Assembly (NCBI RefSeq): GCF_008831285.2
Contig: NC_045145.1
Coordinates: forward strand, 22,336,040 to 22,400,039
DNA length: 64,000 nt
Direction: 5' to 3'
Source: Nymphaea colorata
Taxonomy: Eukaryota; Streptophyta; Magnoliopsida; Nymphaeales; Nymphaeaceae
Shown here: one piece after another, positions 35,441 to 62,698 of the stretch
Layout: each line of letters begins with the position of its first letter
Position numbering within the stretch: position 1 is the stretch's first letter
Position numbers and translations under genes: made by a program
Notes under the pieces: model-generated
The model's input: the letters and a program-made list of their open reading frames with translations, nothing else
Told to the model about the DNA's origin: nothing
The model's database searches: none

Positions 35441-36442
35441 TTACGCTGCAGGGCGGCCTTGGCGCCGTTCTTTCCTATGTTTCAATAGCCTCTGCTCCCT
35501 CTCACGGAGTTTTTCCTTGCACGAGTTGGCTTCCTTCTTCGAGCTTTCGATAAGGGGGATTGCCTCTTCTAACTTGCTCAGGAGGCGTTTTTGCAGACGG
35601 AGGAGCTCCTCAGAAGAGCGGCCGCCCTTTATCAATATCTTTATCAACTCTTCAACGGACAAGTAGACGGGCCTTAAATCACTCAGCACATGCAGTCTTT
35701 TGTCCATGGGATACTGCAGCCTCCTGTACCGTTCCTTGAGCCGCAACTCCTCCATTTTTTTCTTCCACCGCCTGTCCACCCACAAGCCCAACTTATCCCA
35801 ATTCACCACTTTCATCACGACCGTGGTGAGGCTGCTGCACAGCGCGAGGACCGGGTTGTGCACCCCGAAAGCTGCAACGATACAAATCAAGGCAACAAGA
35901 AGGAATCCCTTAATGGTAGTGGAAATGACTTTCTTGACGCATTCCTTTCGTTGGAACCTCTCCAGTGAAACTCCCAACTGCTGAACCTTCTCGGCGATCA
36001 GTTGGTGTTGCTCCTGCAGGACACGCGACGTCTCCAGGAACCGCTGCGTACTGAAACCGCCGCCGGATAGGAATCTCCTCAGCTTATCCCGTATTAATTT
36101 TTTCTCCTGATCGGTCTTCTGGTTTTGTGACGGACTCCACTGTTTGAGGTCGTCGAGGAGCTGGCGGAGCTTTTTCCTCTGGCTCTCCAAGTTTTCGATC
36201 AAGGATTCCAAGAACTTCTTGGAAGCCCTGGTGAGATTAAGCAATTGCTGGTTAAGGCTGGCGAGAAGTTTCTCTTTGTACATGAGGTTGCAGTCGGGAC
36301 AAACCGCGGTACATGGCAGCTTCACTGTCTGCTTGCTGAAGTAATCGAGGAAGGACACGGAATGTTTGACGAGCTCCAACGAAACGCCTTCCGGCTTTAT
36401 CTCCAGGAACCATTTGGAGAGCTCATTTAGAAGCTCCGTCAT
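35441..36442 (-). CDS. UPF0496 (DUF677/At14a-like) family-like protein, left copy
   Basis: Single-exon protein of 333 residues, function unknown; At14a-like relatives in Arabidopsis are membrane-associated. Seen: helical, coiled-coil-rich N-terminal half (55-170); a hydrophobic segment near 176-212 (GFLLVALICIVAAFG) that could cross the membrane once or twice; a following W-x5-WV motif (Trp215, Trp221) like the UPF0496 'GKW' region; and a charged C-terminal coiled coil ending in Lys/Arg-rich residues. A Cys cluster CTAVCPDC lies at 44-51. The ATG at 36442 is the first in frame: the frame extends upstream but only from a TTG, and a GA-rich leader precedes the ATG. The partial gene at the right window end shares the W-x5-WV and C-terminal layout. 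Family call rests on overall architecture, so moderate. Confidence 0.65.
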   Translation of the reverse strand: MTELLNELSKWFLEIKPEGVSLELVKHSVSFLDYFSKQTVKLPCTAVCPDCNLMYKEKLLASLNQQLLNLTRASKKFLESLIENLESQRKKLRQLLDDLKQWSPSQNQKTDQEKKLIRDKLRRFLSGGGFSTQRFLETSRVLQEQHQLIAEKVQQLGVSLERFQRKECVKKVISTTIKGFLLVALICIVAAFGVHNPVLALCSSLTTVVMKVVNWDKLGLWVDRRWKKKMEELRLKERYRRLQYPMDKRLHVLSDLRPVYLSVEELIKILIKGGRSSEELLRLQKRLLSKLEEAIPLIESSKKEANSCKEKLREREQRLLKHRKERRQGRPAA

Positions 36443-36495: not shown

Positions 36496-39400
36496 GAATG
36501 ATCGTAAGCCTTGTACACATCATCCGTATGTACATGAATATCTGTTAACAATTATTTTTTTTTTTTAATTTTTATTTTGTGAATTAAGAATATTTTAGTC
36601 AGTAATCCTATAACACATGAAAATTCGTACACCAATATGATGCATATAATCAGGGGTTCAGCAGGTAAGATGTACAGATTACGGCCTTATTGTCGTTTTT
36701 GCTTTGTCGTTTTTAAATCAGCTTAAAATATTTAAAATATGATCTTTTATAAAAAAAATTAGAAATGTACAATACTGGCGGATAAACAACGATGTGTATC
36801 ATGGGATATACCATATCGGCTTCATGCTGAAACAGTAGTAATACCATTATTCACATCATCCGTTTGCCAATTCAACGGTCGGTGAGGGGTCAATTTCGAC
36901 CATCTTGGCCGACGTTTCCAGTCTGCATGAGCGTCCAAAGATTGTTGTGTGGTTGGAAGGGATGGAGTGGTTTTTTTTTTTTTTTTTTGGTCGCTGCGAT
37001 AATACAAAAAAAATTAAAAGAAGGATTACAAAATAAACTAATATTACCAAATTCATTATTTTTGGGGGCAATTATCTTGAGGAAGCTACCCATGAAGGAG
37101 AACATTTTGAAAAGATATACAATCGGTCGCTTAAATGTTTGGGAATTCACTGTGCGGGTGCATTACTTAGAGGACTTCATGTATGTATGAACTCAGAGGA
37201 CTCAAAGTCGACCCCACACCTCTCCGCCCTCCCTCCACCACACATTTTTTTCAGTTTAAAATGGAAGCTAGTTGGAGTTTTCATGGGTTGCTTTTCCATT
37301 TGATAATTGATTCTGAGGAAACCATTTGGGGTCAAGAGACTTTGTTGTACTATTTACTGGTCTTAGTCTTATAAATAAGGGGTGACTTTTAGTCTTATAA
37401 ATAAGGGGCGAAGTCAAGGTAGGGCCCAGTTGGGTCTTGACTCTACATCAATTTTTTTTTAAAAAAGTTATATATAAATTTTAGAATGTTCCAATTGTTT
37501 TATATAACAACTTTAAAAAATAATATTTAAGCCCTAATCAAAATTTAGAATGTTACCTTTATGAAAATTTTTTTGCTCCACCCATAGTCTGTTCGCATCA
37601 ACTAATCATCTTGTGCGCGTCAGACCAAAACATATTAAAATAGTTAATGGAGCCAATAGGAACACAACGAAGGTGAAGAGTATAAATCATAGGGTCCCTG
37701 CAGGTCTTAGCCACCATGTTATGCCTGGCTTTTTATTATTTTATATGAAATATTTTTACGGGTGCCAGCTGTAAAATTTGGGAAGAGATTTAAACATGGG
37801 AGGGATTCTAGCAAATCCACAACCTACAATTAATAACAAATTAAGGAATTGGAGAGTTACTAATGATTTAAAGGACAGCAACTTTCTGAGAGGAATCATA
37901 AATTATCCCAAAACTATTTGTACTTGTCCGGAGCAAGGTTCAATCAAATCCAACAGTCCAGAAGAACATATCAAAGGTAAATCTTTCGTTAAGGTCCAGA
38001 TGAGTTTGTCAAGGCATCTTCAGCTAATCCACATTCAAATGCATAAAAAAAAAATTTCCTTTTGGGTATTCTGAATTCATTGTTTGTTTTTTTATGAAAG
38101 TTCAGGTTTTTTTAATGATTCAGACCAATAATGCTAAGATAAGCCAATGTGAGAGGTGAATTTGGATATATTCATCATTATACTTTTTTTAGTAGAGAAC
38201 TAACCCTTTACATAAGTAACTTTCATCTTCAAAAACAGGAAGCAAATTATGGATGTTAGTGGATCAAATTTGAATCAGATGTACTCTGATTCCCTTGTTT
38301 TGGATGTTCACATATTTAGATTTGAAGTCAATTCTTATATAAATAAAGAAATTGAAGTCATAACTGAATGTGATTTTCACAATCTGAACCACATTTTTAA
38401 GGTCACGTACATGTGAATCTGGATGCCAATTTTAAAGAGTATCCAAACCACATACGAATCAACTTTCAAAATGTTAAACCATCCTATACAAGGTTTTTCT
38501 TTAAAACTACGTCCAATCTAAATCCAGATCAAATTTGAATTTGAATCCACCCAGATACTTATATAAATATGAATTAGAATCTGATGTCATTTTTAATTTG
38601 ATCCAATTTCTTAGTCGGATGTTAAATTATGTTTTTCTCCATATTGATTGTATTGAAAATGTTTCTATCAAATATTAAATCCAAAGTGAATTTATTGGCA
38701 TCCCTAAAACAAATGGTGCAGCGTGAACGGAACCGTATCATTTCAGCCATGGTGTGCACATGTCTATGCTTACACCCACATAACTGTCAATTCACTAAAG
38801 TAAATGCAAATGAAATTATTATAAATGAAACAAATGTGAATGAAATGATTGTGACAATCGAGTGTGTTAATTTTAGTCATTGAATGGTCCCTACATGTTG
38901 TGGAATATGTGAGAGACTTCAGGCTACCATCATGATGTTTTTCATATATATTACATCACAGATTTGAGCTCTAACCTTACAGGGCTAGGGATTTATTTGG
39001 TTTGTTACCACTCTAAATCTTCTGTTGTTTTCTTTTCAAGTTTTGATGGACTTGCTGCAGATGACTCAACTCAGACCCTATTGGAGAGATTTTGGATTTA
39101 TTGTACTGCCGACACGTCATGTTTTGGGTCTCATTGATATCTTATTTTGTTAGATGTCAATCTTGTTTTTTTAGGGCATTTTTATCATGTGTTTCACTGA
39201 GGAATGTGAAGTGACTTTGTATGAACTGAATTTAATACATAATAAAATATTTGCCCCATTGTCTTTTGATATGCATAGTTCCTTTTGAATCGTTGTGTCG
39301 TCGCACATTGACATTTTATGTTTTTAACAAAAAAAAAAATTTATTTGAGGGTAAAAAGGTTGAGATGTGACAAATGGTGTCATTTTTTTTTTGCAAATAA

Positions 39401-39522
39401 AATTCATTAAGCTAAAAAGTTGGACCATTGGTTTTTCTTTGAAATATTAACTAAACACTGGCTAGAATAGCACGGTGTTGACCGTCAGTTTTAAAACATA
39501 AAAATCAAGATCACTGGGATCA

Positions 39523-39602
<80 letters not shown>
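39523..39602. repeat. Compound TG/TA/GA microsatellite of the unit
   Basis: About 22 TA and 12 GA repeats in copy 1. Equivalent tracts: copy 2 at 44000-44080 (about 23 TA, 12 GA); copy 3 at 48477-48536, copy 4 at 52929-52988 and copy 5 at 57386-57444 (each about 16 TA, 9 GA). The lengths separate copies 1-2 from copies 3-5. Confidence 0.9.
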
Positions 39603-40680
39603 CAATGGAATGTCATGTCAACTAATTAAATTACTAAGATTCTTAGCCTCTGATCACATACTTCAAGCCCTCAAAAGGTGGGTGTGAGTCAATTCAACGG
39701 ATGATTCTAAGTCGACGACCAGAGAACCGCAAGGTTCCACACAGGGCGCGTTTGATCAAACAGTGAGTCCCACACTGATTCAGTCCGCTCCGGTCCTAAG
39801 ATCTCTAGTCATGAAGGAATTTCATGTTCAATTTCTAGTTATGTCTATTAACTGATCTTATGTGAACTCGGAATAGTAAATTCTGTGATCATAAAGCTTG
39901 ACATGAACGTGCCTGTCTCTATATTTGAGAGCTGTGTGCCTTTTTTGTTCTTGTCCGTCCGCTCTACAGCAACACATACGCTCTGCGTTATTGTTAGTAG
40001 CAGTGAGACTTCGTTGTACTTTTGGCACAACTTGCGTCTTCCATGCAGCATTTGGGTACATGATCTAGATGCCCCTTGAAAGAATTCCCATTGTAAGAGT
40101 TCTAAACCAACACACTAATGTAGCTCTGGACTTTGGAGGTAAGGGGTAGCAAAACTTGGCCTGGCTCTCCCTGTGTAGTGGGGGATTTCCTACAAGATCG
40201 CTTGATAAAAGATTTTTTTTTTTTTGGAGAAAAAAAAAACACCTCTATGCTCATGAGAGAGTGAGGATGTCAATGGATCATATTTAAATAGGATATATTG
40301 TCGACTGTATATGCTTTTTTAGATGTTCACTTATTGGAGTTTAAATTTGAACATGAACAAAAAAAAAAGTCATATATGAATATGAATTAGAAGTCTTATT
40401 TTACAATCTAAATTTAAAATGATTTTGATTTTTACATCCATATCTGAATTAGAATCTGAATTTTGAACTGAATCCAGCCGATTTTTAAATGTAAGAACCT
40501 TAGATATAGAATATTTATTGAACACTAAATTAGATCAGAATCCAATTATATATATATCCAAATCTGAATCTGATTGAATGTGACTTCTTAAATCCAGTTT
40601 CTCTTCGATTTTTCAACCAGCTAATTTTTTTTTCATGTCAGATTTTTTCTAAACAGTTCGACCATATATCTAAGTTAAAT

Positions 40681-40938
40681 ATGCACCTTTTGCTGAAAGA
40701 TATTTTTTTTTCATGCATTTTCATTGTTTTACTTTTTCAAAATTTTCTTAGATATTTGCGAGTGGAAATGAGACGGAAAATAGCCGGAAGCTTCGCTATA
40801 ATTCAACCCAAGTTGCCAGTGGAAGCATACATTTGTCCCTCCCTGTTCATGCCTTCATGGGTGCTGATAGACTCTATTCGCCAAGGTGACTATCATCTTT
40901 CCAAGAGGTTCTTCTTTTATTATTTCTTTGATGCCTAA
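40681..40938 (+). other. Exon-like open frame in the unit, function unknown
   Basis: An 85-codon frame with an ATG, intact and apparently identical in copies 1-4 (also 45158-45415, 49615-49872, 54067-54324). Its middle (EMRRKIAGSFAIIQPKLPVE) is less AT-rich than its surroundings and preceded by 'tttcttag', so it may be a captured exon. I recognise no family. Because whole units are near-identical, conservation of the frame says little about selection. It may be non-coding. Confidence 0.25.
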
Positions 40939-41038
40939 TTCTTGATATTTGGTAGATCCACATCCTATTGGCATGGTGCAGACAAAGAGAGAAAGTTGCG
41001 GTACGCCAAAAGAAATATCTTCTATAGTTTTTTTTTTT

Positions 41039-43998
41039 AATTTTTATTTTGTGAATTAAGAATATTTTAGTCAGTAATCCTATAACACATGAAAATTCGT
41101 ACACCAAGATGATGCATATAATCAGGGGTTCAGCAGGTAAGATGTACAGATACGGCCTTATTGTCGTTTTTGCTTTGTCGTTTTTAAATCAGCTTAAAAT
41201 ATTTAAAATATGATCTTTTATAAAAAAAAATTAGAAATGTACAATACTGGCGGATAAACAACGATGTGTATCATGGGATATACCATATCGGCTTCATGCT
41301 GAAACAGTAGTAATACCATTATTCACATCATCCGTTTGCCAATTCAACGGTCGGTGAGGGGTCAATTTCGACCATCTTGGCCGACGTTTCCGGTCTGCAT
41401 GAGCGTCCAAAGATTGTTGTGTGGTTGGAAGGGATGGAGTGGTTTTTTTTTTTTTTTGGTCTATTTTAGCTGCGATAATACAAAAAAAAATTAAAAGAAA
41501 GATTACAAAATAAACTAATATTACCAAATTCATTATTTTTGGGGGCAATTATCTTGAGGTCCTCAACCCATGAAGGAGAACATTTTGAAAAGATATACAA
41601 TCGGTCGCTTAAATGTTTGGGAATTCACTGTGCGGGTGCATTACTTAGAGGACTTCATGTATGTATGAACTCAGAGGACTCAAAGTCGACCCCACACCTC
41701 TCCGCCCTCCCTCCACCACGCATTTTTTTCAGTTTAAAATGGAAGCTAGTTGGAGTTTTCATGGGTTGCTTTTCCATTTGATAATTGATTCCGAGGAAAC
41801 CATTTGGGGTCAAGAGACTTTGTTGTACCATTTACTGGTCTTAGTCTTATAAATAAGGGGTGACTTTTAGTCTTATAAATAAGGGGCGAAGTCAAGGTAG
41901 GGCCCAGTTGGGTCTTGACTCTACATCAATTTTTTTTTAAAAAAGTTATATATAAATTTTAGAATGTTCCAATTGTTTTATATAACAACTTTAAAAAATA
42001 ATATTTAAGCCCTAATCAAAATTTAGAATGTTACCTTTATGAAAATTTTTTTGCTCCACCCATAGTCTGTTCGCATCAACTAATCATCTTGTGCGCGTCA
42101 GACCAAAAAATATTAAAATAGTTAATGGAGCCAATAGGAACACAACGAAGGTGAAGAGTATAAATCATAGGGTCCCTGCAGGTCTTAGCCACCATGTTAT
42201 GCCTGGCTTTTTATTATTTTATATGAAATATTTTTACGGGTGCCAGCTGTAAAATTTGGGAAGAGATTTAAACATGGGAGGGATTCTAGCAAATCCACAA
42301 CCTACAATTAATAACAAATTAAGGAAATGGAGAGTTACTAATGATTTAAAGGACAGCAACTTTCTGAGAGGAATCATAAATTATCCCAAAACTATTTGTA
42401 CTTGTCCGGAGCAAGGTTCAATCAAATCCAACAGTCCAGAAGAACATATCAAAGGTAAATCTTTCGTTAAGGTCCAGATGAGTTTGTCAAGGCATCTTCA
42501 GCTAATCCACATTCAAATGCATAAAAAAAAATTTCCTTTTGGGTATTCTGAATTCATTGTTTGTTTTTTTATGAAAGTTCAGGTTTTTTTAATGATTCAG
42601 ACCAATAATGCTAAGATAAGCCAATGTGAGAGGTGAATTTGGATATATTCATCATTATACTTTTTTTAGTAGAGAACTAACCCTTTACATAAGTAACTTT
42701 CATCTTCAAAAACAGGAAGCAAATTATGGATGTTAGTGGATCAAATTTGAATCAGATGTACTCTGATTCCCTTGTTTTGGATGTTCACATATTTAGATTT
42801 GAAGTCAATTCTTATATAAATAAAGAAATTGAAGTCATAACTGAATGTGATTTTCACAATCTGAACCACATTTTTAAGGTCACGTACATGTGAATCTGGA
42901 TGCCAATTTTAAAGAGTATCCAAACCACATACGAATCAACTTTCAAAATGTTAAACCATCCTATACAAGGTTTTTCTTTAAAACTACGTCCAATCTAAAT
43001 CCAGATCAAATTTGAATTTGAATCCACCCAGATACTTATATAAATATGAATTAGAATCTGATGTCATTTTTAATTTGATCCAATTTCTTAGTCGGATGTT
43101 AAATTATGTTTTTCTCCATATTGATTGTATTGAAAATGTTTCTATCAAATATTAAATCCAAAGTGAATTTATTGGCATCCCTAAAACAAATGGTGCAGCG
43201 TGAACGGAACCGTATCATTTCAGCCATGGTGTGCACATGTCTATGCTTACACCCACATAACTGTCAATTCACTAAAGTAAATGCAAATGAAATTATTATA
43301 AATGAAACAAATGTGAATGAAATGATTGTGACAATCGAGTGTGTTAATTTTAGTCATTGAATGGTCCCTACATGTTGTGGAATATGTGAGAGACTTCAGG
43401 CTACCATCATGATGTTTTTCATATATATTACATCACAGATTTGAGCTCTAACCTTACAGGGCTAGGGATTTATTTGGTTTGTTACCACTCTAAATCTTCT
43501 GTTGTTTTCTTTTCAAGTTTTGATGGACTTGCTGCAGATGACTCAACTCAGACCCTATTGGAGAGATTTTGGATTTATTGTACTGCCGACACGCCATGTT
43601 TTGGGTCTCATTGATATCTTATTTTGTTAGATGTCAATCTTGTTTTTTTAGGGCATTTTTATCATGTGTTTCACTGAGGAATGTGAAGTGACTTTGTATG
43701 AACTGAATTTAATACATAATAAAATATTTGCCCCATTGTCTTTTGATATGCATAGTTCCTTTTGAATCGTTGTGTCGTCGCACATTGACATTTTATGTTT
43801 TTAACAAAAAAAAAATTTATTTGAGGGTAAAAAGGTTGAGATGTGACAAATGGTGTCATTTTTTTTTTGCAAATAAAATTCATTAAGCTAAAAAGTTGGA
43901 CCATTGGTTTTTCTTTGAAATATTAACTAAACACTGGCTAGAATAGCACGGTGTTGACCGTCAGTTTTAAAACATAAAAATCAAGATCACTGGGATCA

Positions 43999-44080
<82 letters not shown>

Positions 44081-45515
44081 CAATGGAATGTCATGTCAAC
44101 TAATTAAATTACTAAGATTCTTAGCCTCTGATCACATACTTCAAGCCCTCAAAAGGTGGGTGTGAGTCAATTCAACGGATGATTCTAAGTCGACGACCAG
44201 AGAACCGCAAGGTTCCACACAGGGCGCGTTTGATCAAACAGTGAGTCCCACACTGATTCAGTCCGCTCCGGTCCTAAGATCTCTAGTCATGAAGGAATTT
44301 CATGTTCAATTTCTAGTTATGTCTATTAACTGATCTTATGTGAACTCGGAATAGTAAATTCTGTGATCATAAAGCTTGACATGAACGTGCCTGTCTCTAT
44401 ATTTGAGAGCTGTGTGCCTTTTTTGTTCTTGTCCGTCCGCTCTACAGCAACACATACGCTCTGCGTTATTGTTAGTAGCAGTGAGACTTCGTTGTACTTT
44501 TGGCACAACTTGCGTCTTCCATGCAGCATTTGGGTACATGATCTAGATGCCCCTTGAAAGAATTCCCATTGTAAAAGTTCTAAACCAACACACTAATGTA
44601 GCTCTGGACTTTGGAGGTAAGGGGTAGCAAAACTTGGCCTGGCTCTCCCTGTGTAGTGGGGGATTTCCTACAAGATCGCTTGATAAAAGATTTTTTTTTT
44701 TTGGAGAAAAAAAAAACACCTCTATGCTCATGAGAGAGTGAGGATGTCAATGGATCATATTTAAATAGGATATATTGTCGACTGTATATGCTTTTTTAGA
44801 TGTTCACTTATTGGAGTTTAAATTTGAACATGAACAAAAAAAAAAGTCATATATGAATATGAATTAGAAGTCTTATTTTACAATCTAAATTTAAAATGAT
44901 TTTGATTTTTACATCCATATCTGAATTAGAATCTGAATTTTGAACTGAATCCAGCCGATTTTTAAATGTAAGAACCTTAGATATAGAATATTTATTGAAC
45001 ACTAAATTAGATCAGAATCCAATTATATATATATCCAAATCTGAATCTGATTGAATGTGACTTCTTAAATCCAGTTTCTCTTCGATTTTTCAACCAGCTA
45101 ATTTTTTTTTCATGTCAGATTTTTTCTAAACAGTTCGACCATATATCTAAGTTAAATATGCACCTTTTGCTGAAAGATATTTTTTTTTCATGCATTTTCA
45201 TTGTTTTACTTTTTCAAAATTTTCTTAGATATTTGCGAGTGGAAATGAGACGGAAAATAGCCGGAAGCTTCGCTATAATTCAACCCAAGTTGCCAGTGGA
45301 AGCATACATTTGTCCCTCCCTGTTCATGCCTTCATGGGTGCTGATAGACTCTATTCGCCAAGGTGACTATCATCTTTCCAAGAGGTTCTTCTTTTATTAT
45401 TTCTTTGATGCCTAATTCTTGATATTTGGTAGATCCACATCCTATTGGCATGGTGCAGACAAAGAGAGAAAGTTGCGGTACGCCAAAAGAAATATCTTCT
45501 ATAGTTTTTTTTTTT
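41039..45515 (+). repeat. 4.48-kb tandem unit, copy 2
   Basis: Near-identical to copy 1 over its whole length. It shows the derived states of copies 2-5 (gaggtcctcaaccc, aaggaaatgg) but still the long microsatellite and 'tttgccccattg' of copy 1. Private variants include 'cgacacgccatg' near 43591 and 'attgtaaaagttc' near 44570. Confidence 0.97.
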
Positions 45516-48476
45516 AATTTTTATTTTGTGAATTAAGAATATTTTAGTCAGTAATCCTATAACACATGAAAATTCGTACACCAATATGATGCATATAATC
45601 AGGGGTTCAGCAGGTAAGATGTACAGATACGGCCTTATTGTCGTTTTTGCTTTGTCGTTTTTAAATCAGCTTAAAATATTTAAAATATGATCTTTTATAA
45701 AAAAAAATTAGAAATGTACAATACTGGCGGATAAACAACGATGTGTATCATGGGATATACCATATCGGCTTCATGCTGAAACAGTAGTAATACCATTATT
45801 CACATCATCCGTTTGCCAATTCAACGGTCGGTGAGGGGTCAATTTCGACCATCTTGGCCGACGTTTCCGGTCTGCATGAGCGTCCAAAGATTGTTGTGTG
45901 GTTGGAAGGGATGGAGTGGTTTTTTTTTTTTTTTGGTCTATTTTAGCTGCGATAATACAAAAAAAAATTAAAAGAAAGATTACAAAATAAACTAATATTA
46001 CCAAATTCATTATTTTTGGGGGCAATTATCTTGAGGTCCTCAACCCATGAAGGAGAACATTTTGAAAAGATATACAATCGGTCGCTTAAATGTTTGGGAA
46101 TTCACTGTGCGGGTGCATTACTTAGAGGACTTCATGTATGTATGAACTCAGAGGACTCAAAGTCGACCCCACACCTCTCCGCCCTCCCTCCACCACGCAT
46201 TTTTTTCAGTTTAAAATGGAAGCTAGTTGGAGTTTTCATGGGTTGCTTTTCCATTTGATAATTGATTCCGAGGAAACCATTTGGGGTCAAGAGACTTTGT
46301 TGTACCATTTACTGGTCTTAGTCTTATAAATAAGGGGTGACTTTTAGTCTTATAAATAAGGGGCGAAGTCAAGGTAGGGCCCAGTTGGGTCTTGACTCTA
46401 CATCAATTTTTTTTTAAAAAAGTTATATATAAATTTTAGAATGTTCCAATTGTTTTATATAACAACTTTAAAAAATAATATTTAAGCCCTAATCAAAATT
46501 TAGAATGTTACCTTTATGAAAATTTTTTTGCTCCACCCATAGTCTGTTCGCATCAACTAATCATCTTGTGCGCGTCAGACCAAAAAATATTAAAATAGTT
46601 AATGGAGCCAATAGGAACACAACGAAGGTGAAGAGTATAAATCATAGGGTCCCTGCAGGTCTTAGCCACCATGTTATGCCTGGCTTTTTATTATTTTATA
46701 TGAAATATTTTTACGGGTGCCAGCTGTAAAATTTGGGAAGAGATTTAAACATGGGAGGGATTCTAGCAAATCCACAACCTACAATTAATAACAAATTAAG
46801 GAAATGGAGAGTTACTAATGATTTAAAGGACAGCAACTTTCTGAGAGGAATCATAAATTATCCCAAAACTATTTGTACTTGTCCGGAGCAAGGTTCAATC
46901 AAATCCAACAGTCCAGAAGAACATATCAAAGGTAAATCTTTCGTTAAGGTCCAGATGAGTTTGTCAAGGCATCTTCAGCTAATCCACATTCAAATGCATA
47001 AAAAAAAAATTTCCTTTTGGGTATTCTGAATTCATTGTTTGTTTTTTTATGAAAGTTCAGGTTTTTTTAATGATTCAGACCAATAATGCTAAGATAAGCC
47101 AATGTGAGAGGTGAATTTGGATATATTCATCATTATACTTTTTTTAGTAGAGAACTAACCCTTTACATAAGTAACTTTCATCTTCAAAAACAGGAAGCAA
47201 ATTATGGATGTTAGTGGATCAAATTTGAATCAGATGTACTCTGATTCCCTTGTTTTGGATGTTCACATATTTAGATTTGAAGTCAATTCTTATATAAATA
47301 AAGAAATTGAAGTCATAACTGAATGTGATTTTCACAATCTGAACCACATTTTTAAGGTCACGTACATGTGAATCTGGATGCCAATTTTAAAGAGTATCCA
47401 AACCACATACGAATCAACTTTCAAAATGTTAAACCATCCTATACAAGGTTTTTCTTTAAAACTACGTCCAATCTAAATCCAGATCAAATTTGAATTTGAA
47501 TCCACCCAGATACTTATATAAATATGAATTAGAATCTGATGTCATTTTTAATTTGATCCAATTTCTTAGTCGGATGTTAAATTATGTTTTTCTCCATATT
47601 GATTGTATTGAAAATGTTTCTATCAAATATTAAATCCAAAGTGAATTTATTGGCATCCCTAAAACAAATGGTGCAGCGTGAACGGAACCGTATCATTTCA
47701 GCCATGGTGTGCACATGTCTATGCTTACACCCACATAACTGTCAATTCACTAAAGTAAATGCAAATGAAATTATTATAAATGAAACAAATGTGAATGAAA
47801 TGATTGTGACAATCGAGTGTGTTAATTTTAGTCATTGAATGGTCCCTACATGTTGTGGAATATGTGAGAGACTTCAGGCTACCATCATGATGTTTTTCAT
47901 ATATATTACATCACAGATTTGAGCTCTAACCTTACAGGGCTAGGGATTTATTTGGTTTGTTACCACTCTAAATCTTCTGTTGTTTTCTTTTCAAGTTTTG
48001 ATGGACTTGCTGCAGATGACTCAACTCAGACCCTATTGGAGAGATTTTGGATTTATTGTACTGCCGACACGTCATGTTTTGGGTCTCATTGATATCTTAT
48101 TTTGTTAGATGTCAATCTTGTTTTTTTAGGGCATTTTTATCATGTGTTTCACTGAGGAATGTGAAGTGACTTTGTATGAACTGAATTTAATACATAATAA
48201 AATATTTGTCCCATTGTCTTTTGATATGCATAGTTCCTTTTGAATCGTTGTGTCGTCGCACATTGACATTTTATGTTTTTAACAAAAAAAAAATTTATTT
48301 GAGGGTAAAAAGGTTGAGATGTGACAAATGGTGTCATTTTTTTTTTGCAAATAAAATTCATTAAGCTAAAAAGTTGGACCATTGGTTTTTCTTTGAAATA
48401 TTAACTAAACACTGGCTAGAATAGCACGGTGTTGACCGTCAGTTTTAAAACATAAAAATCAAGATCACTGGGATCA

Positions 48477-48536
<60 letters not shown>

Positions 48537-49971
48537 CAATGGAATGTCATGTCAACTAATTAAATTACTAAGATTCTTAGCCTCTGATCACATACTTCAA
48601 GCCCTCAAAAGGTGGGTGTGAGTCAATTCAACGGATGATTCTAAGTCGACGACCAGAGAACCGCAAGGTTCCACACAGGGCGCGTTTGATCAAACAGTGA
48701 GTCCCACACTGATTCAGTCCGCTCCGGTCCTAAGATCTCTAGTCATGAAGGAATTTCATGTTCAATTTCTAGTTATGTCTATTAACTGATCTTATGTGAA
48801 CTCGGAATAGTAAATTCTGTGATCATAAAGCTTGACATGAACGTGCCTGTCTCTATATTTGAGAGCTGTGTGCCTTTTTTGTTCTTGTCCGTCCGCTCTA
48901 CAGCAACACATACGCTCTGCGTTATTGTTAGTAGCAGTGAGACTTCGTTGTACTTTTGGCACAACTTGCGTCTTCCATGCAGCATTTGGGTACATGATCT
49001 AGATGCCCCTTGAAAGAATTCCCATTGTAAGAGTTCTAAACCAACACACTAATGTAGCTCTGGACTTTGGAGGTAAGGGGTAGCAAAACTTGGCCTGGCT
49101 CTCCCTGTGTAGTGGGGGATTTCCTACAAGATCGCTTGATAAAAGATTTTTTTTTTTTTGGAGAAAAAAAAAACACCTCTATGCTCATGAGAGAGTGAGG
49201 ATGTCAATGGATCATATTTAAATAGGATATATTGTCGACTGTATATGCTTTTTTAGATGTTCACTTATTGGAGTTTAAATTTGAACATGAACAAAAAAAA
49301 AAGTCATATATGAATATGAATTAGAAGTCTTATTTTACAATCTAAATTTAAAATGATTTTGATTTTTACATCCATATCTGAATTAGAATCTGAATTTTGA
49401 ACTGAATCCAGCCGATTTTTAAATGTAAGAACCTTAGATATAGAATATTTATTGAACACTAAATTAGATCAGAATCCAATTATATATATATCCAAATCTG
49501 AATCTGATTGAATGTGACTTCTTAAATCCAGTTTCTCTTCGATTTTTCAACCAGCTAATTTTTTTTTCATGTCAGATTTTTTCTAAACAGTTCGACCATA
49601 TATCTAAGTTAAATATGCACCTTTTGCTGAAAGATATTTTTTTTTCATGCATTTTCATTGTTTTACTTTTTCAAAATTTTCTTAGATATTTGCGAGTGGA
49701 AATGAGACGGAAAATAGCCGGAAGCTTCGCTATAATTCAACCCAAGTTGCCAGTGGAAGCATACATTTGTCCCTCCCTGTTCATGCCTTCATGGGTGCTG
49801 ATAGACTCTATTCGCCAAGGTGACTATCATCTTTCCAAGAGGTTCTTCTTTTATTATTTCTTTGATGCCTAATTCTTGATATTTGGTAGATCCACATCCT
49901 ATTGGCATGGTGCAGACAAAGAGAGAAAGTTGCGGTACGCCAAAAGAAATATCTTCTATAGTTTTTTTTTT
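45516..49971 (+). repeat. 4.46-kb tandem unit, copy 3
   Basis: Near-identical unit with the copies 2-5 variants plus 'tttgtcccattg' and the shortened microsatellite shared by copies 3-5. Confidence 0.97.
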
Positions 49972-52928
49972 AATTTTTATTTTGTGAATTAAGAATATTT
50001 TAGTCAGTAATCCTATAACACATGAAAATTCGTACACCAATATGATGCATATAATCAGGGGTTCAGCAGGTAAGATGTACAGATACGGCCTTATTGTCGT
50101 TTTTGCTTTGTCGTTTTTAAATCAGCTTAAAATATTTAAAATATGATCTTTTATAAAAAAAAATTAGAAATGTACAATACTGGCGGATAAACAACGATGT
50201 GTATCATGGGATATACCATATCGGCTTCATGCTGAAACAGTAGTAATACCATTATTCACATCATCCGTTTGCCAATTCAACGGTCGGTGAGGGGTCAATT
50301 TCGACCATCTTGGCCGACGTTTCCGGTCTGCATGAGCGTCCAAAGATTGTTGTGTGGTTGGAAGGGATGGAGTGGTTTTTTTTTTTTTTTGGTCTATTTT
50401 AGCTGCGATAATACAAAAAAAAATTAAAAGAAAGATTACAAAATAAACTAATATTACCAAATTCATTATTTTTGGGGGCAATTATCTTGAGGTCCTCAAC
50501 CCATGAAGGAGAACATTTTGAAAAGATATACAATCGGTCGCTTAAATGTTTGGGAATTCACTGTGCGGGTGCATTACTTAGAGGACTTCATGTATGTATG
50601 AACTCAGAGGACTCAAAGTCGACCCCACACCTCTCCGCCCTCCCTCCACCACGCATTTTTTTCAGTTTAAAATGGAAGCTAGTTGGAGTTTTCATGGGTT
50701 GCTTTTCCATTTGATAATTGATTCCGAGGAAACCATTTGGGGTCAAGAGACTTTGTTGTACCATTTACTGGTCTTAGTCTTATAAATAAGGGGTGACTTT
50801 TAGTCTTATAAATAAGGGGCGAAGTCAAGGTAGGGCCCAGTTGGGTCTTGACTCTACATCAATTTTTTTTAAAAAAGTTATATATAAATTTTAGAATGTT
50901 CCAATTGTTTTATATAACAACTTTAAAAAATAATATTTAAGCCCTAATCAAAATTTAGAATGTTACCTTTATGAAAATTTTTTTGCTCCACCCATAGTCT
51001 GTTCGCATCAACTAATCATCTTGTGCGCGTCAGACCAAAAAATATTAAAATAGTTAATGGAGCCAATAGGAACACAACGAAGGTGAAGAGTATAAATCAT
51101 AGGGTCCCTGCAGGTCTTAGCCACCATGTTATGCCTGGCTTTTTATTATTTTATATGAAATATTTTTACGGGTGCCAGCTGTAAAATTTGGGAAGAGATT
51201 TAAACATGGGAGGGATTCTAGCAAATCCACAACCTACAATTAATAACAAATTAAGGAAATGGAGAGTTACTAATGATTTAAAGGACAGCAACTTTCTGAG
51301 AGGAATCATAAATTATCCCAAAACTATTTGTACTTGTCCGGAGCAAGGTTCAATCAAATCCAACAGTCCAGAAGAACATATCAAAGGTAAATCTTTCGTT
51401 AAGGTCCAGATGAGTTTGTCAAGGCATCTTCAGCTAATCCACATTCAAATGCATAAAAAAAAAATTTCCTTTTGGGTATTCTGAATTCATTGTTTGTTTT
51501 TTTATGAAAGTTCAGGTTTTTTTAATGATTCAGACCAATAATGCTAAGATAAGCCAATGTGAGAGGTGAATTTGGATATATTCATCATTATACTTTTTTA
51601 GTAGAGAACTAACCCTTTACATAAGTAACTTTCATCTTCAAAAACAGGAAGCAAATTATGGATGTTAGTGGATCAAATTTGAATCAGATGTACTCTGATT
51701 CCCTTGTTTTGGATGTTCACATATTTAGATTTGAAGTCAATTCTTATATAAATAAAGAAATTGAAGTCATAACTGAATGTGATTTTCACAATCTGAACCA
51801 CATTTTTAAGGTCACGTACATGTGAATCTGGATGCCAATTTTAAAGAGTATCCAAACCACATACGAATCAACTTTCAAAATGTTAAACCATCCTATACAA
51901 GGTTTTTCTTTAAAACTACGTCCAATCTAAATCCAGATCAAATTTGAATTTGAATCCACCCAGATACTTATATAAATATGAATTAGAATCTGATGTCATT
52001 TTTAATTTGATCCAATTTCTTAGTCGGATGTTAAATTATGTTTTTCTCCATATTGATTGTATTGAAAATGTTTCTATCAAATATTAAATCCAAAGTGAAT
52101 TTATTGGCATCCCTAAAACAAATGGTGCAGCGTGAACGGAACCGTATCATTTCAGCCATGGTGTGCACATGTCTATGCTTACACCCACATAACTGTCAAT
52201 TCACTAAAGTAAATGCAAATGAAATTATTATAAATGAAACAAATGTGAATGAAATGATTGTGACAATCGAGTGTGTTAATTTTAGTCATTGAATGGTCCC
52301 TACATGTTGTGGAATATGTGAGAGACTTCAGGCTACCATCATGATGTTTTTCATATATATTACATCACAGATTTGAGCTCTAACCTTACAGGGCTAGGGA
52401 TTTATTTGGTTTGTTACCACTCTAAATCTTCTGTTGTTTTCTTTTCAAGTTTTGATGGACTTGCTGCAGATGACTCAACTCAGACCCTATTGGAGAGATT
52501 TTGGATTTATTGTACTGCCGACACGTCATGTTTTGGGTCTCATTGATATCTTATTTGTTAGATGTCAATCTTGTTTTTTAGGGCATTTTTATCATGTGTT
52601 TCACTGAGGAATGTGAAGTGACTTTGTATGAACTGAATTTAATACATAATAAAATATTTGTCCCATTGTCTTTTGATATGCATAGTTCCTTTTGAATCGT
52701 TGTGTCGTCGCACATTGACATTTTATGTTTTTAACAAAAAAAAAAATTTATTTGAGGGTAAAAAGGTTGAGATGTGACAAATGGTGTCATTTTTTTTTGC
52801 AAATAAAATTCATTAAGCTAAAAAGTTGGACCATTGGTTTTTCTTTGAAATATTAACTAAACACTGGCTAGAATAGCACGGTGTTGACCGTCAGTTTTAA
52901 AACATAAAAATCAAGATCACTGGGATCA

Positions 52929-52988
<60 letters not shown>

Positions 52989-54424
52989 CAATGGAATGTC
53001 ATGTCAACTAATTAAATTACTAAGATTCTTAGCCTCTGATCACATACTTCAAGCCCTCAAAAGGTGGGTGTGAGTCAATTCAACGGATGATTCTAAGTCG
53101 ACGACCAGAGAACCGCAAGGTTCCACACAGGGCGCGTTTGATCAAACAGTGAGTCCCACACTGATTCAGTCCGCTCCGGTCCTAAGATCTCTAGTCATGA
53201 AGGAATTTCATGTTCAATTTCTAGTTATGTCTATTAACTGATCTTATGTGAACTCGGAATAGTAAATTCTGTGATCATAAAGCTTGACATGAACGTGCCT
53301 GTCTCTATATTTGAGAGCTGTGTGCCTTTTTTGTTCTTGTCCGTCCGCTCTACAGCAACACATACGCTCTGCGTTATTGTTAGTAGCAGTGAGACTTCGT
53401 TGTACTTTTGGCACAACTTGCGTCTTCCATGCAGCATTTGGGTACATGATCTAGATGCCCCTTGAAAGAATTCCCATTGTAAGAGTTCTAAACCAACACA
53501 CTAATGTAGCTCTGGACTTTGGAGGTAAGGGGTAGCAAAACTTGGCCTGGCTCTCCCTGTGTAGTGGGGGATTTCCTACAAGATCGCTTGATAAAAGATT
53601 TTTTTTTTTTTGGAGAAAAAAAAAACACCTCTATGCTCATGAGAGAGTGAGGATGTCAATGGATCATATTTAAATAGGATATATTGTCGACTGTATATGC
53701 TTTTTTAGATGTTCACTTATTGGAGTTTAAATTTGAACATGAACAAAAAAAAAAGTCATATATGAATATGAATTAGAAGTCTTATTTTACAATCTAAATT
53801 TAAAATGATTTTGATTTTTACATCCATATCTGAATTAGAATCTGAATTTTGAACTGAATCCAGCCGATTTTTAAATGTAAGAACCTTAGATATAGAATAT
53901 TTATTGAACACTAAATTAGATCAGAATCCAATTATATATATATCCAAATCTGAATCTGATTGAATGTGACTTCTTAAATCCAGTTTCTCTTCGATTTTTC
54001 AACCAGCTAATTTTTTTTTCATGTCAGATTTTTTCTAAACAGTTCGACCATATATCTAAGTTAAATATGCACCTTTTGCTGAAAGATATTTTTTTTTCAT
54101 GCATTTTCATTGTTTTACTTTTTCAAAATTTTCTTAGATATTTGCGAGTGGAAATGAGACGGAAAATAGCCGGAAGCTTCGCTATAATTCAACCCAAGTT
54201 GCCAGTGGAAGCATACATTTGTCCCTCCCTGTTCATGCCTTCATGGGTGCTGATAGACTCTATTCGCCAAGGTGACTATCATCTTTCCAAGAGGTTCTTC
54301 TTTTATTATTTCTTTGATGCCTAATTCTTGATATTTGGTAGATCCACATCCTATTGGCATGGTGCAGACAAAGAGAGAAAGTTGCGGTACGCCAAAAGAA
54401 ATATCTTCTATAGTTTTTTTTTTT
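49972..54424 (+). repeat. 4.45-kb tandem unit, copy 4
   Basis: Near-identical unit of the copies 3-5 group. Small private deletions occur near 52555 ('cttatttgttag' instead of 'cttattttgttag') and in poly-T runs, explaining the slightly shorter length. Confidence 0.97.
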
Positions 54425-57384
54425 AATTTTTATTTTGTGAATTAAGAATATTTTAGTCAGTAATCCTATAACACATGAAAATTCGTACACCAATATGATG
54501 CATATAATCAGGGGTTCAGCAGGTAAGATGTACAGATACGGCCTTATTGTCGTTTTTGCTTTGTCGTTTTTAAATCAGCTTAAAATATTTAAAATATGAT
54601 CTTTTATAAAAAAAAATTAGAAATGTACAATACTGGCGGATAAACAACGATGTGTATCATGGGATATACCATATCGGCTTCATGCTGAAACAGTAGTAAT
54701 ACCATTATTCACATCATCCGTTTGCCAATTCAACGGTCGGTGAGGGGTCAATTTCGACCATCTTGGCCGACGTTTCCGGTCTGCATGAGCGTCCAAAGAT
54801 TGTTGTGTGGTTGGAAGGGATGGAGTGGTTTTTTTTTTTTTTTGGTCTATTTTAGCTGCGATAATACAAAAAAAAATTAAAAGAAAGATTACAAAATAAA
54901 CTAATATTACCAAATTCATTATTTTTGGGGGCAATTATCTTGAGGTCCTCAACCCATGAAGGAGAACATTTTGAAAAGATATACAATCGGTCGCTTAAAT
55001 GTTTGGGAATTCACTGTGCGGGTGCATTACTTAGAGGACTTCATGTATGTATGAACTCAGAGGACTCAAAGTCGACCCCACACCTCTCCGCCCTCCCTCC
55101 ACCACGCATTTTTTTCAGTTTAAAATGGAAGCTAGTTGGAGTTTTCATGGGTTGCTTTTCCATTTGATAATTGATTCCGAGGAAACCATTTGGGGTCAAG
55201 AGACTTTGTTGTACCATTTACTGGTCTTAGTCTTATAAATAAGGGGTGACTTTTAGTCTTATAAATAAGGGGCGAAGTCAAGGTAGGGCCCAGTTGGGTC
55301 TTGACTCTACATCAATTTTTTTTTAAAAAAGTTATATATAAATTTTAGAATGTTCCAATTGTTTTATATAACAACTTTAAAAAATAATATTTAAGCCCTA
55401 ATCAAAATTTAGAATGTTACCTTTATGAAAATTTTTTGCTCCACCCATAGTCTGTTCGCATCAACTAATCATCTTGTGCGCGTCAGACCAAAAAATATTA
55501 AAATAGTTAATGGAGCCAATAGGAACACAACGAAGGTGAAGAGTATAAATCATAGGGTCCCTGCAGGTCTTAGCCACCATGTTATGCCTGGCTTTTTATT
55601 ATTTTATATGAAATATTTTTACGGGTGCCAGCTGTAAAATTTGGGAAGAGATTTAAACATGGGAGGGATTCTAGCAAATCCACAACCTACAATTAATAAC
55701 AAATTAAGGAAATGGAGAGTTACTAATGATTTAAAGGACAGCAACTTTCTGAGAGGAATCATAAATTATCCCAAAACTATTTGTACTTGTCCGGAGCAAG
55801 GTTCAATCAAATCCAACAGTCCAGAAGAACATATCAAAGGTAAATCTTTCGTTAAGGTCCAGATGAGTTTGTCAAGGCATCTTCAGCTAATCCACATTCA
55901 AATGCATAAAAAAAAAATTTCCTTTTGGGTATTCTGAATTCATTGTTTGTTTTTTTATGAAAGTTCAGGTTTTTTTAATGATTCAGACCAATAATGCTAA
56001 GATAAGCCAATGTGAGAGGTGAATTTGGATATATTCATCATTATACTTTTTTTAGTAGAGAACTAACCCTTTACATAAGTAACTTTCATCTTCAAAAACA
56101 GGAAGCAAATTATGGATGTTAGTGGATCAAATTTGAATCAGATGTACTCTGATTCCCTTGTTTTGGATGTTCACATATTTAGATTTGAAGTCAATTCTTA
56201 TATAAATAAAGAAATTGAAGTCATAACTGAATGTGATTTTCACAATCTGAACCACATTTTTAAGGTCACGTACATGTGAATCTGGATGCCAATTTTAAAG
56301 AGTATCCAAACCACATAGGAATCAACTTTCAAAATGTTAAACCATCCTATACAAGGTTTTTCTTTAAAACTACGTCCAATCTAAATCCAGATCAAATTTG
56401 AATTTGAATCCACCCAGATACTTATATAAATATGAATTAGAATCTGATGTCATTTTTAATTTGATCCAATTTCTTAGTCGGATGTTAAATTATGTTTTTC
56501 TCCATATTGATTGTATTGAAAATGTTTCTATCAAATATTAAATCCAAAGTGAATTTATTGGCATCCCTAAAACAAATGGTGCAGCGTGAACGGAACCGTA
56601 TCATTTCAGCCATGGTGTGCACATGTCTATGCTTACACCCACATAACTGTCAATTCACTAAAGTAAATGCAAATGAAATTATTATAAATGAAACAAATGT
56701 GAATGAAATGATTGTGACAATCGAGTGTGTTAATTTTAGTCATTGAATGGTCCCTACATGTTGTGGAATATGTGAGAGACTTCAGGCTACCATCATGATG
56801 TTTTTCATATATATTACATCACAGATTTGAGCTCTAACCTTACAGGGCTAGGGATTTATTTGGTTTGTTACCACTCTAAATCTTCTGTTGTTTTCTTTTC
56901 AAGTTTTGATGGACTTGCTGCAGATGACTCAACTCAGACCCTATTGGAGAGATTTTGGATTTATTGTACTGCCGACACGTCATGTTTTGGGTCTCATTGA
57001 TATCTTATTTTGTTAGATGTCAATCTTGTTTTTTTAGGGCATTTTTATCATGTGTTTCACTGAGGAATGTGAAGTGACTTTGTATGAACTGAATTTAATA
57101 CATAATAAAATATTTGTCCCATTGTCTTTTGATATGCATAGTTCCTTTTGAATCGTTGTGTCGTCGCACATTGACATTTATGTTTTTAACAAAAAAAAAA
57201 ATTTATTTGAGGGTAAAAAGGTTGAGATGTGACAAATGGTGTCATTTTTTTTTTGCAAATAAAATTCATTAAGCTAAAAAGTTGGACCATTGGTTTTTCT
57301 TTGAAATATTAACTAAACACTGGCTAGAATAGCACGGTGTTGACCGTCAGTTTTAAAACATAAAAATCAAGATCACTGGGATCA

Positions 57385-57444
<60 letters not shown>

Positions 57445-58280
57445 CAATGGAATGTCATGTCAACTAATTAAATTACTAAGATTCTTAGCCTCTGATCACA
57501 TACTTCAAGCCCTCAAAAGGTGGGTGTGAGTCAATTCAACGGATGATTCTAAGTCGACGACCAGAGAACCGCAAGGTTCCACACAGGGCGCGTTTGATCA
57601 AACAGTGAGTCCCACACTGATTCAGTCCGCTCCGGTCCTAAGATCTCTAGTCATGAAGGAATTTCATGTTCAATTTCTAGTTATGTCTATTAACTGATCT
57701 TATGTGAACTCGGAATAGTAAATTCTGTGATCATAAAGCTTGACATGAACGTGCCTGTCTCTATATTTGAGAGCTGTGTGCCTTTTTTGTTCTTGTCCGT
57801 CCGCTCTACAGCAACACATACGCTCTGCGTTATTGTTAGTAGCAGTGAGACTTCGTTGTACTTTTGGCACAACTTGCGTCTTCCATGCAGCATTTGGGTA
57901 CATGATCTAGATGCCCCTTGAAAGAATTCCCATTGTAAGAGTTCTAAACCAACACACTAATGTAGCTCTGGACTTTGGAGGTAAGGGGTAGCAAAACTTG
58001 GCCTGGCTCTCCCTGTGTAGTGGGGGATTTCCTACAAGATCGCTTGATAAAAGATTTTTTTTTTTTTGGAGAAAAAAAAAACACCTCTATGCACATGAGA
58101 GAGTGAGGATGTCAATGGATCATATTTAAATAGGATATATTGTTGACTGTATATGCTTTTTTAGATGTTCACTTATTGGAGTTTAAATTTGAACATGAAC
58201 AAAAAAAAAGTCATATATGAATATGAATTAGAAGTCTTATTTTACAATCTAAATTTAAAATGATTTTGATTTTTACATCC
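54425..58280 (+). repeat. Tandem unit, copy 5 (truncated on the right)
   Basis: Same unit, cut at 'gatttttacatcc' (58280), where an LTR-like sequence begins; the last roughly 600 bp, including the exon-like frame, are missing. Private variants: 'cacataggaatc' near 56315, 'attgttgactg' near 58140 and 'atgcacatgag' near 58091. Confidence 0.96.
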
Positions 58281-58474
58281 TGTAATCACCCCAAATTTTT
58301 CTAAGGGACTATGATGTTTTATCCAAATGCGAAATTCAAATTTAGGCACAAGATTTCCAAAATACTACTCTCATATCCAAATTAAATCCAAAATAGAACT
58401 CTATGATCCAAATTAAATCCAAAATACTACTTTTAGATCCAAAACCTAAGTTCAGATCCAAATCAATCATTTAA

Positions 58475-59098
58475 GACCGATTTGCCCCTCCTTTTGACCA
58501 AAAAACCTTCTTTTAGAGGGTGATTTTAGTTTTTTTTAAACAAGACCGATTTGTCCCTCCTTTTGACCAAAAAACCTCCTTTTAGAGGGTGATTTTAGTC
58601 TTTTTTTTAAACAAGACCGATTTGCCCCTTTTTTTTACCAAAAAACCTCTTTTAGAGTGTGATTTTAGTTTTTTTTTAAACAAGACCGATTTGCCCTTCC
58701 TTTTGACCAAAAAACCTCCTTTAGAGGGTGATTTTAGTCTTTTTCAAACAAGACCGATTTGCCCCTCATTTTGACCAAAAAAACCTTTTTTTAGAGGGTG
58801 ATTTTAGTCTTTTTCAAACAAGACCGATTTGCCCCTCCTTTTGACCAAAAAACCTTCTTTTAGAGGGTGATTTTAGTCTTTTTTAAACAAGACCGATTTG
58901 CCCCTCCTTTTGACCAAAAAACCTCCTTTTAGAGGGTGATTTTAGTCTTTTTGGTAAACAAGACCAATTTACCTTTCCTTTTGACCAAAAAACATCCTTT
59001 TAGAGGGTAGTTTTAGTCTTTTTGGGTGGACAAGACTCATTTGCCCTTCCTTTTGGCCAAAAAAATCTCCTTTTGGAGGGTGATTTTAGTATTTTTAG
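58475..59098 (+). repeat. 70-bp minisatellite, about 9 copies, inside the LTR
   Basis: Units start at 58475, 58544, 58615, 58684, 58752, 58822, 58891, 58962 and 59034, each containing gaccgatttgcccctccttt, then a 'gaccaaaaaacc' and 'agagggtgattttagt' core. Spacing is 68-72 bp. The last units are most diverged. The open frame through part of it merely reads the 69-bp spacing as 23 codons. Confidence 0.93.
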
Positions 59099-59138
59099 GT
59101 CAAAAAATTCAAATTTTGGGTTTTGGCTCCAAAATCCT

Positions 59139-59147
59139 CTATAAATA
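59139..59147 (+). promoter_or_regulatory. TATA box of the LTR (predicted)
   Basis: ctataaata followed by a C-rich run and a CT-rich leader, as at the U3/R transition of plant LTRs. Predicted from sequence only. Confidence 0.5.
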
Positions 59148-59492
59148 CCCCCCCATATCCCCCTTCTTGGGCAAGATTGGTCCTTGAGAGAAACTCTAGT
59201 GTATTCTCACTTGAAGACTTAGAGTTTCTCTTGAGTTCTCTCTCTCTCTCCCTCTTTCTCTTTTCATTTCCTTCTCCAACTTAGAGCAAGCACTTTTGGA
59301 GCTTCATTCAAAAGGGGATCTTCAAGTGAAGGTGTTCATCTTCCTTAAGTTATTTTCCATTAGAGGTATGTAATCTTCATCTCTCTCATTTCTCTCTTCT
59401 TTCTTTTCATTAATGTTCTTATTATTATGTTATTTCTTTCTCTTAAACATAGTGTTGTTGTTGTTTTCATTTTTTTTCTCATCTTCATCTCT

Positions 59493-59890
59493 CCATGGCC
59501 AAAGGAGATAGCACTCAACCTCTTTTTAGAGACAAGAGGCTATGCTCAAATGCACCGGGAGCATGAGAAGATGAGATGATATTTTATTTTATGATTAAAT
59601 CATGCTCTTTCAAGTATTCTTGTTGTTCTTGTTCTTTCTCTTCCTTCTCTTCAATATATATTCTTGTTGTTGTTATTTTTTTCCTTAATGAATATATTTT
59701 TGTTGTTATTATTATTTCATTTCTTCAATATAGTCTTGTCCTTGTTATTTTCTTTTTTTTCTCTTCTTCCTCTTCCCATGACCAAAGGAGATAACCCTCA
59801 ATCTCTTTTTAGAGACAAGAGGCTATGCTCAAGTGCATTGAAAGTATGAAAAGATGAGAGGATCTTTCGTTTCATGATTGAATCATGTTT
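59493..59890 (+). repeat. Direct duplication in the 3' part of the LTR
   Basis: A block of about 115 bp starting 'ccatg.ccaaaggagata' and containing 'agagacaagaggctatgctc' occurs at 59493-59608 and again at 59776-59890, 283 bp apart, with moderate divergence. Confidence 0.85.
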
Positions 59891-61786: not shown

Positions 61787-62586
61787 GGGGGTGTCCGATG
61801 GCCAGAAATATATTTCTAGAAAAAACTTTTCAGAAATAAATTTCTAGAATTGAAGAATGAGAAATATTTTTTCGTTTTTCCAAAACAAAAATTCGGTTTG
61901 AGCTTCCTCCCTCCTTCCCTCCTTCCTTCCTCCCTTTTTCTCCTTCCCTTATGCAAATGGGAAAAATATGCACATAGAGAACCGACATTACCATGAACAA
62001 GCACGCGTCTCCCACATCAACAAGAGCCTCCAAAACAGGATACAATTTGAAGTTGCAGCACAGAGAAGAGGGAACGAGAGAGAGTGTGAGAGAAAGTGAA
62101 AGAAAGGGGTTTCTGTACCTGTCGATGTCTGCTTCATGAGGATGGAAGGTGGCAGAGGTCAAAATCTACAAAGCGTCTCCAACTGGTGCCGCTTGATGAG
62201 CTCTGCAAGAGGCGTCTGTTTCCAACGAGGAATAAGGGAGGCGGAGAGCGAGAAAGGAAGAATGGCGCAGGAGGCGTCCGTTTCTAGCTTCAATGGGAAA
62301 AGTCTATGAGTGAGTTGGAAGGAGGGCTTGAGAGACGACCAAGGGAGGCAGCAGTGGTAGGAGGGAGGAAGGTGAGGCGAGCAATGCGAGCGTGTCCTAA
62401 TGGGAAAAAAAAAAAGGGAAATATGTTTCCACCTCTCGTGGTGGAAACATATTTCCGAAAATAAAATTCTGATTTCCACGTTAACGGTAAAAAAACTAAT
62501 TCTGTGTTTGTTAAATCAGATTTTTTTAAAAATTTTGAATTTTATTTCTTTCGCTACAGGACTTTTCCAGGCCATCAAACAGCCCC
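61787..62586. mobile_element. PIF/Harbinger (Tourist-like) non-autonomous element
   Basis: An 800-bp insertion in copy 6, flanked by TAA on both sides (61784-61786 and 62587-62589). The five other units show the empty site with a single TAA (ccctaaaac). Terminal inverted repeats are gggggtgtccgatggcc and, on the other strand, ggggctgtttgatggcc (14 of 17 matching). The TAA duplication and G-rich ends fit PIF/Harbinger. No transposase is present; the interior has CT-rich and GA-rich runs and a palindrome. Confidence 0.85.
62417..62456. repeat. Perfect palindrome inside the Harbinger-like element
   Basis: 17-bp perfect arms ggaaatatgtttccacc and its complement around the 6-base loop tctcgt. Confidence 0.95.
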
Positions 62587-62698
62587 TAAAACAAATGGTG
62601 TCTTTTTTTTTTTTGCAAATAAAATTCCTTAAGCTAAAAAGTAAGACCATTGATTTTTCTTATGAAATATTAATTATACACTGACTAGAAAAGCACGG

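Follow-up and report, generated by a model that had tools for sequence, protein, structure and literature searches.

The penta-repeat of maize Pl1-Rhoades consists of five direct copies of 2092 bp, which lie in intergenic DNA near a gene and are mostly transposon-derived; related haplotypes carry two or three copies (PMC11166354). Its units do not differ from one another; they are located ~14 kb downstream of pl1, and siRNA and paramutation are linked to them. The maize b1 hepta-repeat, a proven enhancer with a unit of 853 bp, is situated ~100 kb upstream; its sequence is described as otherwise unique (PMC11166354). In wild potato, the Sobo satellite has a 4.7 kb monomer, similar to the LTR of a retrotransposon, and forms a pericentromeric array of ~360 kb (PMC3648361).

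A tandem array of the water lily Nymphaea colorata, contained in a window of 64,000 nucleotides (the whole stretch of DNA that was analysed), resembles each of these systems in part. Like Pl1-Rhoades as described in the cited text, it comprises five direct, tandem, kilobase-long intergenic copies near a gene. Its unit is longer (4.46 kb), however, and lies ~113 bp upstream of a start codon, with an older, diverged copy adjoining. With b1 it shares the character of a low-copy, direct, intergenic repeat near a gene, but the unit is five times longer than that reported for b1 (PMC11166354), and any function it may have is putative. The 4.7 kb monomer given for Sobo (PMC3648361) is close in length; in the water lily, in contrast, five or six units lie between genes, and LTR-like sequence is found beside the units rather than inside them.

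In its few direct, head-to-tail copies of kilobase-scale non-coding DNA near a gene, the array is of the b1/pl1 kind. Further marks of that kind are a unit that occurs nowhere else in the genome, and siRNA production with heritable silencing or enhancer activity. Satellites form long, usually heterochromatic arrays of many copies, and the window holds five units between genes; mobile elements carry a transposase or reverse transcriptase of their own, and no domain of either was found in six frames of the unit. The array joins the documented kilobase-scale intergenic repeats near genes (pl1/b1), and its history is better preserved. Among titles of published work, none was found that describes the water-lily array.

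Organization of the array and its borders

A 42-base anchor taken from the beginning of the unit is found at five places in the window, always in direct orientation, at the first base of each unit (Table 1). This bears out the four complete units and one cut unit, with periods of 4472, 4477, 4456 and 4453 bp, of a preliminary description of this DNA. In a self-BLAST, shifted copies are 98.7-99.5% identical over 3.9-17.3 kb, far above chance. The array had been taken to start at 36567; the periods counted from there hold, but the true onset of the repeat lies ~12 bases earlier, in a poly-T run that recurs at each unit-unit junction. The unit ends are formed by this poly-T run. No target-site duplication was seen there on inspection, and on the right the array's own end has given way to another element.

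Table 1. Features of the array and of the adjoining DNA (positions in the window)
Feature	Position	Strand	Remarks
Gene 1, DUF677/UPF0496-type	35441..36442	-	single-exon, 333 aa; start codon 36442, stop 35441-35443
Possible gene 1 TATA box, TATAAAA	36489..36495	-	motif only; putative function
12-mer CACATCATCCGT	36516..36527	+	also once per unit (unit position ~286) and at X' left end (59937)
Array left edge	36555..36566	+	inside poly-T run
Unit 1	36567..41038	+	4472 bp; all unit-1-private base changes in positions 355-1290
651-bp insert, unit 1	38719..39369		10-bp direct repeat ACAAATGGTG on both flanks
Unit 2	41039..45515	+	4477 bp
Unit 3	45516..49971	+	4456 bp
Unit 4	49972..54424	+	4453 bp; 0 substitutions vs unit 3
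Unit 5	54425..58280	+	ends after 3856 bp
LTR-like element	58281..59938		1658 bp; TG start, CA end, TATAAATA at 59140, CATCC/CATCA flanks
X' (older copy)	59939..63210	+	colinear with unit positions ~281-3490; divergence 2.0% in the left 1.2 kb and 10.7% beyond
800-bp MITE-like insert in X'	61787..62586		17-bp terminal inverted repeat 14/17; TAA each side
Gene 2, DUF677-type, C-terminal part	63575..64000	-	runs past window end

The left edge of the array is ~113 bp from the start codon of gene 1 and ~60 bp from a TATAAAA motif. Judged by these distances, the array has taken over the presumed upstream region of gene 1. The 12-mer CACATCATCCGT is present seven times in the window (36516, 36852, 41324, 45801, 50257, 54710 and 59937); it occurs within the presumed gene 1 promoter and also exactly at the onset of the homology between the unit and X'. 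It is perhaps a microhomology that was used in an old rearrangement. None of 20000 random segments matches the CACATCATCCGT edge, which was picked after being seen, and 89 of 2000 have some complex 12-mer in common with the unit. For a reading of CACATCATCCGT as a 12-bp target-site duplication around 36528-36851, inspection by eye shows neither terminal repeats nor a poly-A end.

Gene 1 resembles PF05055 with an E value of 2.1e-5 (24.1 bits, under the Pfam cut-off of 29.1) and is 38% identical over 303 amino acids to a 340-residue PF05055 protein of Nymphaea thermarum, its sole match among 6164 scored candidates. The corresponding values for gene 2 are 0.002 and 17.6 bits, also under the 29.1 cut-off, and Prominin is similar at E 0.0026. 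Gene 2 is 55% identical over 115 amino acids to the same Nymphaea thermarum protein. The two genes match each other weakly (29% over 119 amino acids, E 2e-4). The array had been described as bounded by two genes of one apparent family. A DUF677-type gene does lie on each side, but the one on the right does not abut the array: the LTR-like element and X' lie in between.

Coding content of the unit

The unit consists of intergenic, non-coding sequence and harbours at least one insert. A Pfam scan of unit 2, covering all six frames across stop codons, returned no family at E 0.1, in agreement with the earlier claim that the unit has no transposase or reverse transcriptase domain; likewise, neither domain was found in 58281-63576. 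No Rfam family reaches its gathering score in the window. When the search of unit 2 is relaxed to E values of up to 1, three matches appear, all far under their gathering scores: mir-297 (E 0.0015, over a TA/TG microsatellite), UPD-PKib (E 0.32) and mir-466 (E 0.65). A hidden gene in the unit was rejected on these Pfam and Rfam results, and a DUF677 pseudogene because tblastn at E 1 detects none. A tandem gene array was dismissed as well, in view of the missing Pfam domain and DUF677 remnant and of a 100-residue frame of units 2-5 that is shifted in unit 1.

Variation among the five units

Pairwise divergence between units is 0-0.55% in aligned bases. In a MAFFT alignment of the five, bases vary in 24 columns and 19 gap events are counted. 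Sixteen of the 24 columns are private to unit 1; by eye, they represent seven single changes, one cluster of 5-6 bases and part of a 7-bp deletion, the latter accompanied by a change in poly-T length. All of these are confined to positions 355-1290 of the unit, and the clustering of the seven single changes is significant in a span test (P = 5e-4). The differences had previously been considered merely scattered, which does not hold for unit 1. Indeed, unit 1 differs from unit 3 by seven changes in the left 1300 bp versus two in the 3156 bp on the right (Fisher P 0.0036). On the right, units 1 and 2 have in common two base states and a long TA/AG microsatellite that are absent from units 3-5. 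Selection conserving the block at unit positions 281-1480 was considered and rejected: it is there that unit 1 differs most from its siblings, including a frame-shifting cluster.

At unit positions ~523-528, a local replacement of 5-6 bases in units 2-5 created the small palindrome GAGGTCCTC. Unit 1 and X' retain the other state. The replacement looks like one templated multi-base mutation.

Private substitutions number at least seven in unit 1, three in unit 2 and three in unit 5. Units 3 and 4 differ by no substitution, and the private differences of unit 4 are five single-base gaps, the kind of difference that long-read consensus error leaves. Four base-distinct types are thus present, namely unit 1, unit 2, unit 5 and a type common to units 3 and 4. 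Since these last two are separated by gaps only, their number rests on the assembly; copy number as a whole is read from one assembly and one haplotype.

An older sixth copy

X' is the only match to the unit elsewhere within the window. In a comparison with unit 3 that excludes inserts, 22 of 1127 aligned sites (2.0%) are changed in the left 1.2 kb of X' and 126 of 1179 (10.7%) in the remainder. A changepoint scan places the step at unit position 1483, and none of 300 permutations reaches its gain in likelihood.

The middle of the X'/unit comparison, which failed to align, resolves into two inserts. The one carried by unit 1 measures 649-650 bp in the four other units, and X' has instead an empty site with a single copy of ACAAATGGTG at 62591. 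Its inverted-repeat score is 35, compared with null values of 30 (95%) and 39 (99%). Given this insert, which X' lacks, part of the unit is probably derived from a mobile element. Conversely, X' contains an insert of 800 bp whose empty site is intact in all five units. Its inverted-repeat score of 46 exceeds the 99% null value of 39 (maximum 56 in 1000). MITEs of the PIF/Harbinger (Tourist-like) kind are recognized by terminal inverted repeats and a 3-bp TAA/TTA target-site duplication, and we take the 800-bp insert to have these features.

By this evidence X' is a true old paralogue, since it is without the 651-bp insert and has one of its own that is absent from the five units. The reciprocal filled and empty sites show that the separation of X' from the units came before both insertions, at a time when the locus was already duplicated. 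The preliminary description had termed the array young. That is correct for the current copies, but not for the array as such, as the locus had been duplicated long enough for X' to reach ~10.7% divergence. The substitution rate of Arabidopsis is 7e-9 per site per year. At that rate the four levels of divergence would correspond to ~8, 1.5, 0.5 and under 0.05 million years, figures that serve as illustrations only.

The LTR-like element at the right end

Unit 5 ends exactly where the LTR-like element, which opens with TGTAATC, starts. Random truncation of unit 5 was rejected on account of this coincidence. LTR retrotransposon remnants are typically recognized by TG...CA ends and a 5-bp target-site duplication; the CATCC/CATCA flanks of the element agree at four of five positions. 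A search with five primer-binding-site motifs found none in the element, and the window holds no second copy of it. Nine copies of a 69-bp minisatellite occupy 58473-59096. The observed/expected CpG ratio is 0.22 in the element, 0.58 in the unit and 0.52 in positions 1-34000 of the window. The low value fits an old methylated element, and 58281-59938 is probably a solo LTR. The value for the unit, when set against the other two, shows no strong mark of long heavy methylation.

Unit sequence is absent beside the element from position 3857 to the end and from 1 to ~281. Because the missing sequence is not contiguous, a deletion, or recombination between two insertions, would also be needed to account for the present arrangement.

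Origin of the array

It is quite probable that an old intergenic tandem duplication between two DUF677 genes has been repeatedly re-expanded by unequal (out-of-register) crossing-over. Re-expansion of an old duplication by unequal exchange is an already-known kind of event. In this process inner copies would replace one another while the outermost sequence at both ends remains trapped, so that age would be greatest towards the left in the leftmost unit and towards the right in the rightmost one. The locus displays such mirrored edges: the oldest portion of unit 1 is the outer, left-hand one, and that of X' the outer, right-hand one. Unequal exchange, the mechanism put forward in the preliminary description, is supported by the identity step in X', by the clustering in unit 1 and by a toy simulation in which 125 of 140 kept crossing-over runs yielded the mirror pattern, as against 33 of 300 gene conversion runs, the two arms differing in copy number (at least four units versus a fixed three). 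The crossing-over arm comprised 300 runs, of which those with fewer than four units were dropped.

Some observations fit less well. The variant patterns of the five units can be arranged, with no need for recombination, as a ladder that runs from unit 1 through unit 2 to units 3-5, and among these units exchange is required only by the spatial clustering. The first 354 bp of unit 1 bear no private base change although they belong to the outer part that should be old, a weak counterpoint as ~2 are expected. Both breakpoints are near unit position 1.3-1.5 kb, which a simple model does not predict.

The proposed sequence of events would start from a segment present in at least two copies, which diverged to ~10.7% and each gained an insert of its own; the alignments record this stage directly. 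Later exchange, which can be traced in outline, would have renewed the edge copies on their inner sides, so that the oldest sequence is left in the outer right of X' and the outer left of unit 1. The present 4.46-kb register may then have been set by breakage in the poly-T tract, given that all unit junctions, as well as the left edge of the array, fall within poly-T. The LTR-like element came to separate unit 5 from X', an arrangement evident in the sequence. It could have arisen by recombination between two related insertions with deletion of the DNA between, or by an insertion followed by a deletion. The last expansions are recent, since units 2-5 are nearly identical.

The most serious alternative, although an unlikely one, is that gene conversion made the mosaic, with one tract of ~1.2 kb exchanged between X' and the array, while another homogenised the right part of unit 1. 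The sharpness of the identity step in X' agrees with this, and conversion yields tracts without a change in copy number. On the other hand, conversion alone does not make copies, and it seldom produced mirrored edges in the simulation. A little less likely still is that an assembly error accounts for part of the copy number, with a single unit counted twice as units 3 and 4, or with two haplotypes strung together. The lack of substitutions between these two units and the five single-base gaps of unit 4 would be expected in that case. However, the private substitutions of units 1, 2 and 5 and the junction of its own at which unit 5 ends require at least four distinct units.

Two further origins appear very improbable, and to the same degree. 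Rolling-circle copying of an excised DNA circle, followed by insertion of the multimer, would yield direct units that are nearly identical, set in an arbitrary register and end in a cut copy. Against it, an older colinear paralogue adjoins the array at the same locus, unit 1 is graded from old to new instead of being equal to the other units, and the cut in unit 5 has its explanation in the LTR-like element. The unit might instead be a mobile element or a high-copy satellite that is present here by chance; it holds one probable insert of its own, and a satellite with a 4.7-kb monomer is reported from potato (PMC3648361). Yet its six frames contain no transposase or reverse transcriptase domain, and there is no sign of the unit elsewhere in the window. 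Unequal crossing-over on an old duplication remains the preferred reading.

Possible significance

The likeliest direct effect of the array would be an altered sequence upstream of gene 1. By analogy with b1 and pl1, it might conceivably act as a putative copy-number-dependent switch that sets the expression, or the heritable silencing, of a DUF677 gene, though we regard this as a long shot. If true, the switch would be placed almost on the promoter, in an early-diverging flowering plant. Should copy number vary between plants, the locus would offer a natural series for the effects of promoter-side repeats on expression outside the grasses. Independently of function, the order of events in a kilobase-scale tandem locus can be read here from one sequence, the clues being an old paralogue with an insert of its own, the mirrored ages of the edges and the near-identical inner copies.

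Other features of the window

At 8531-10489 lies a PPR-DYW gene whose product shares 97% identity with a protein of Nymphaea thermarum from end to end and, along 83% of its length, 84% with a protein of Victoria cruziana, which marks the window as DNA of a water lily or a close relative. The gene is flanked by two diverged copies of another repeat, at 1-695 and 11443-12225, which are 82-85% identical. An intact-looking resistance-type gene of the CC-NBS-LRR kind (Rx_N, NB-ARC, winged helix, LRR) occupies 1489-4245 on the minus strand. An exon with a DNA polymerase lambda fingers domain is located at 19717-20133, and a 183-bp tandem duplication is found near it, at 19198-19547.
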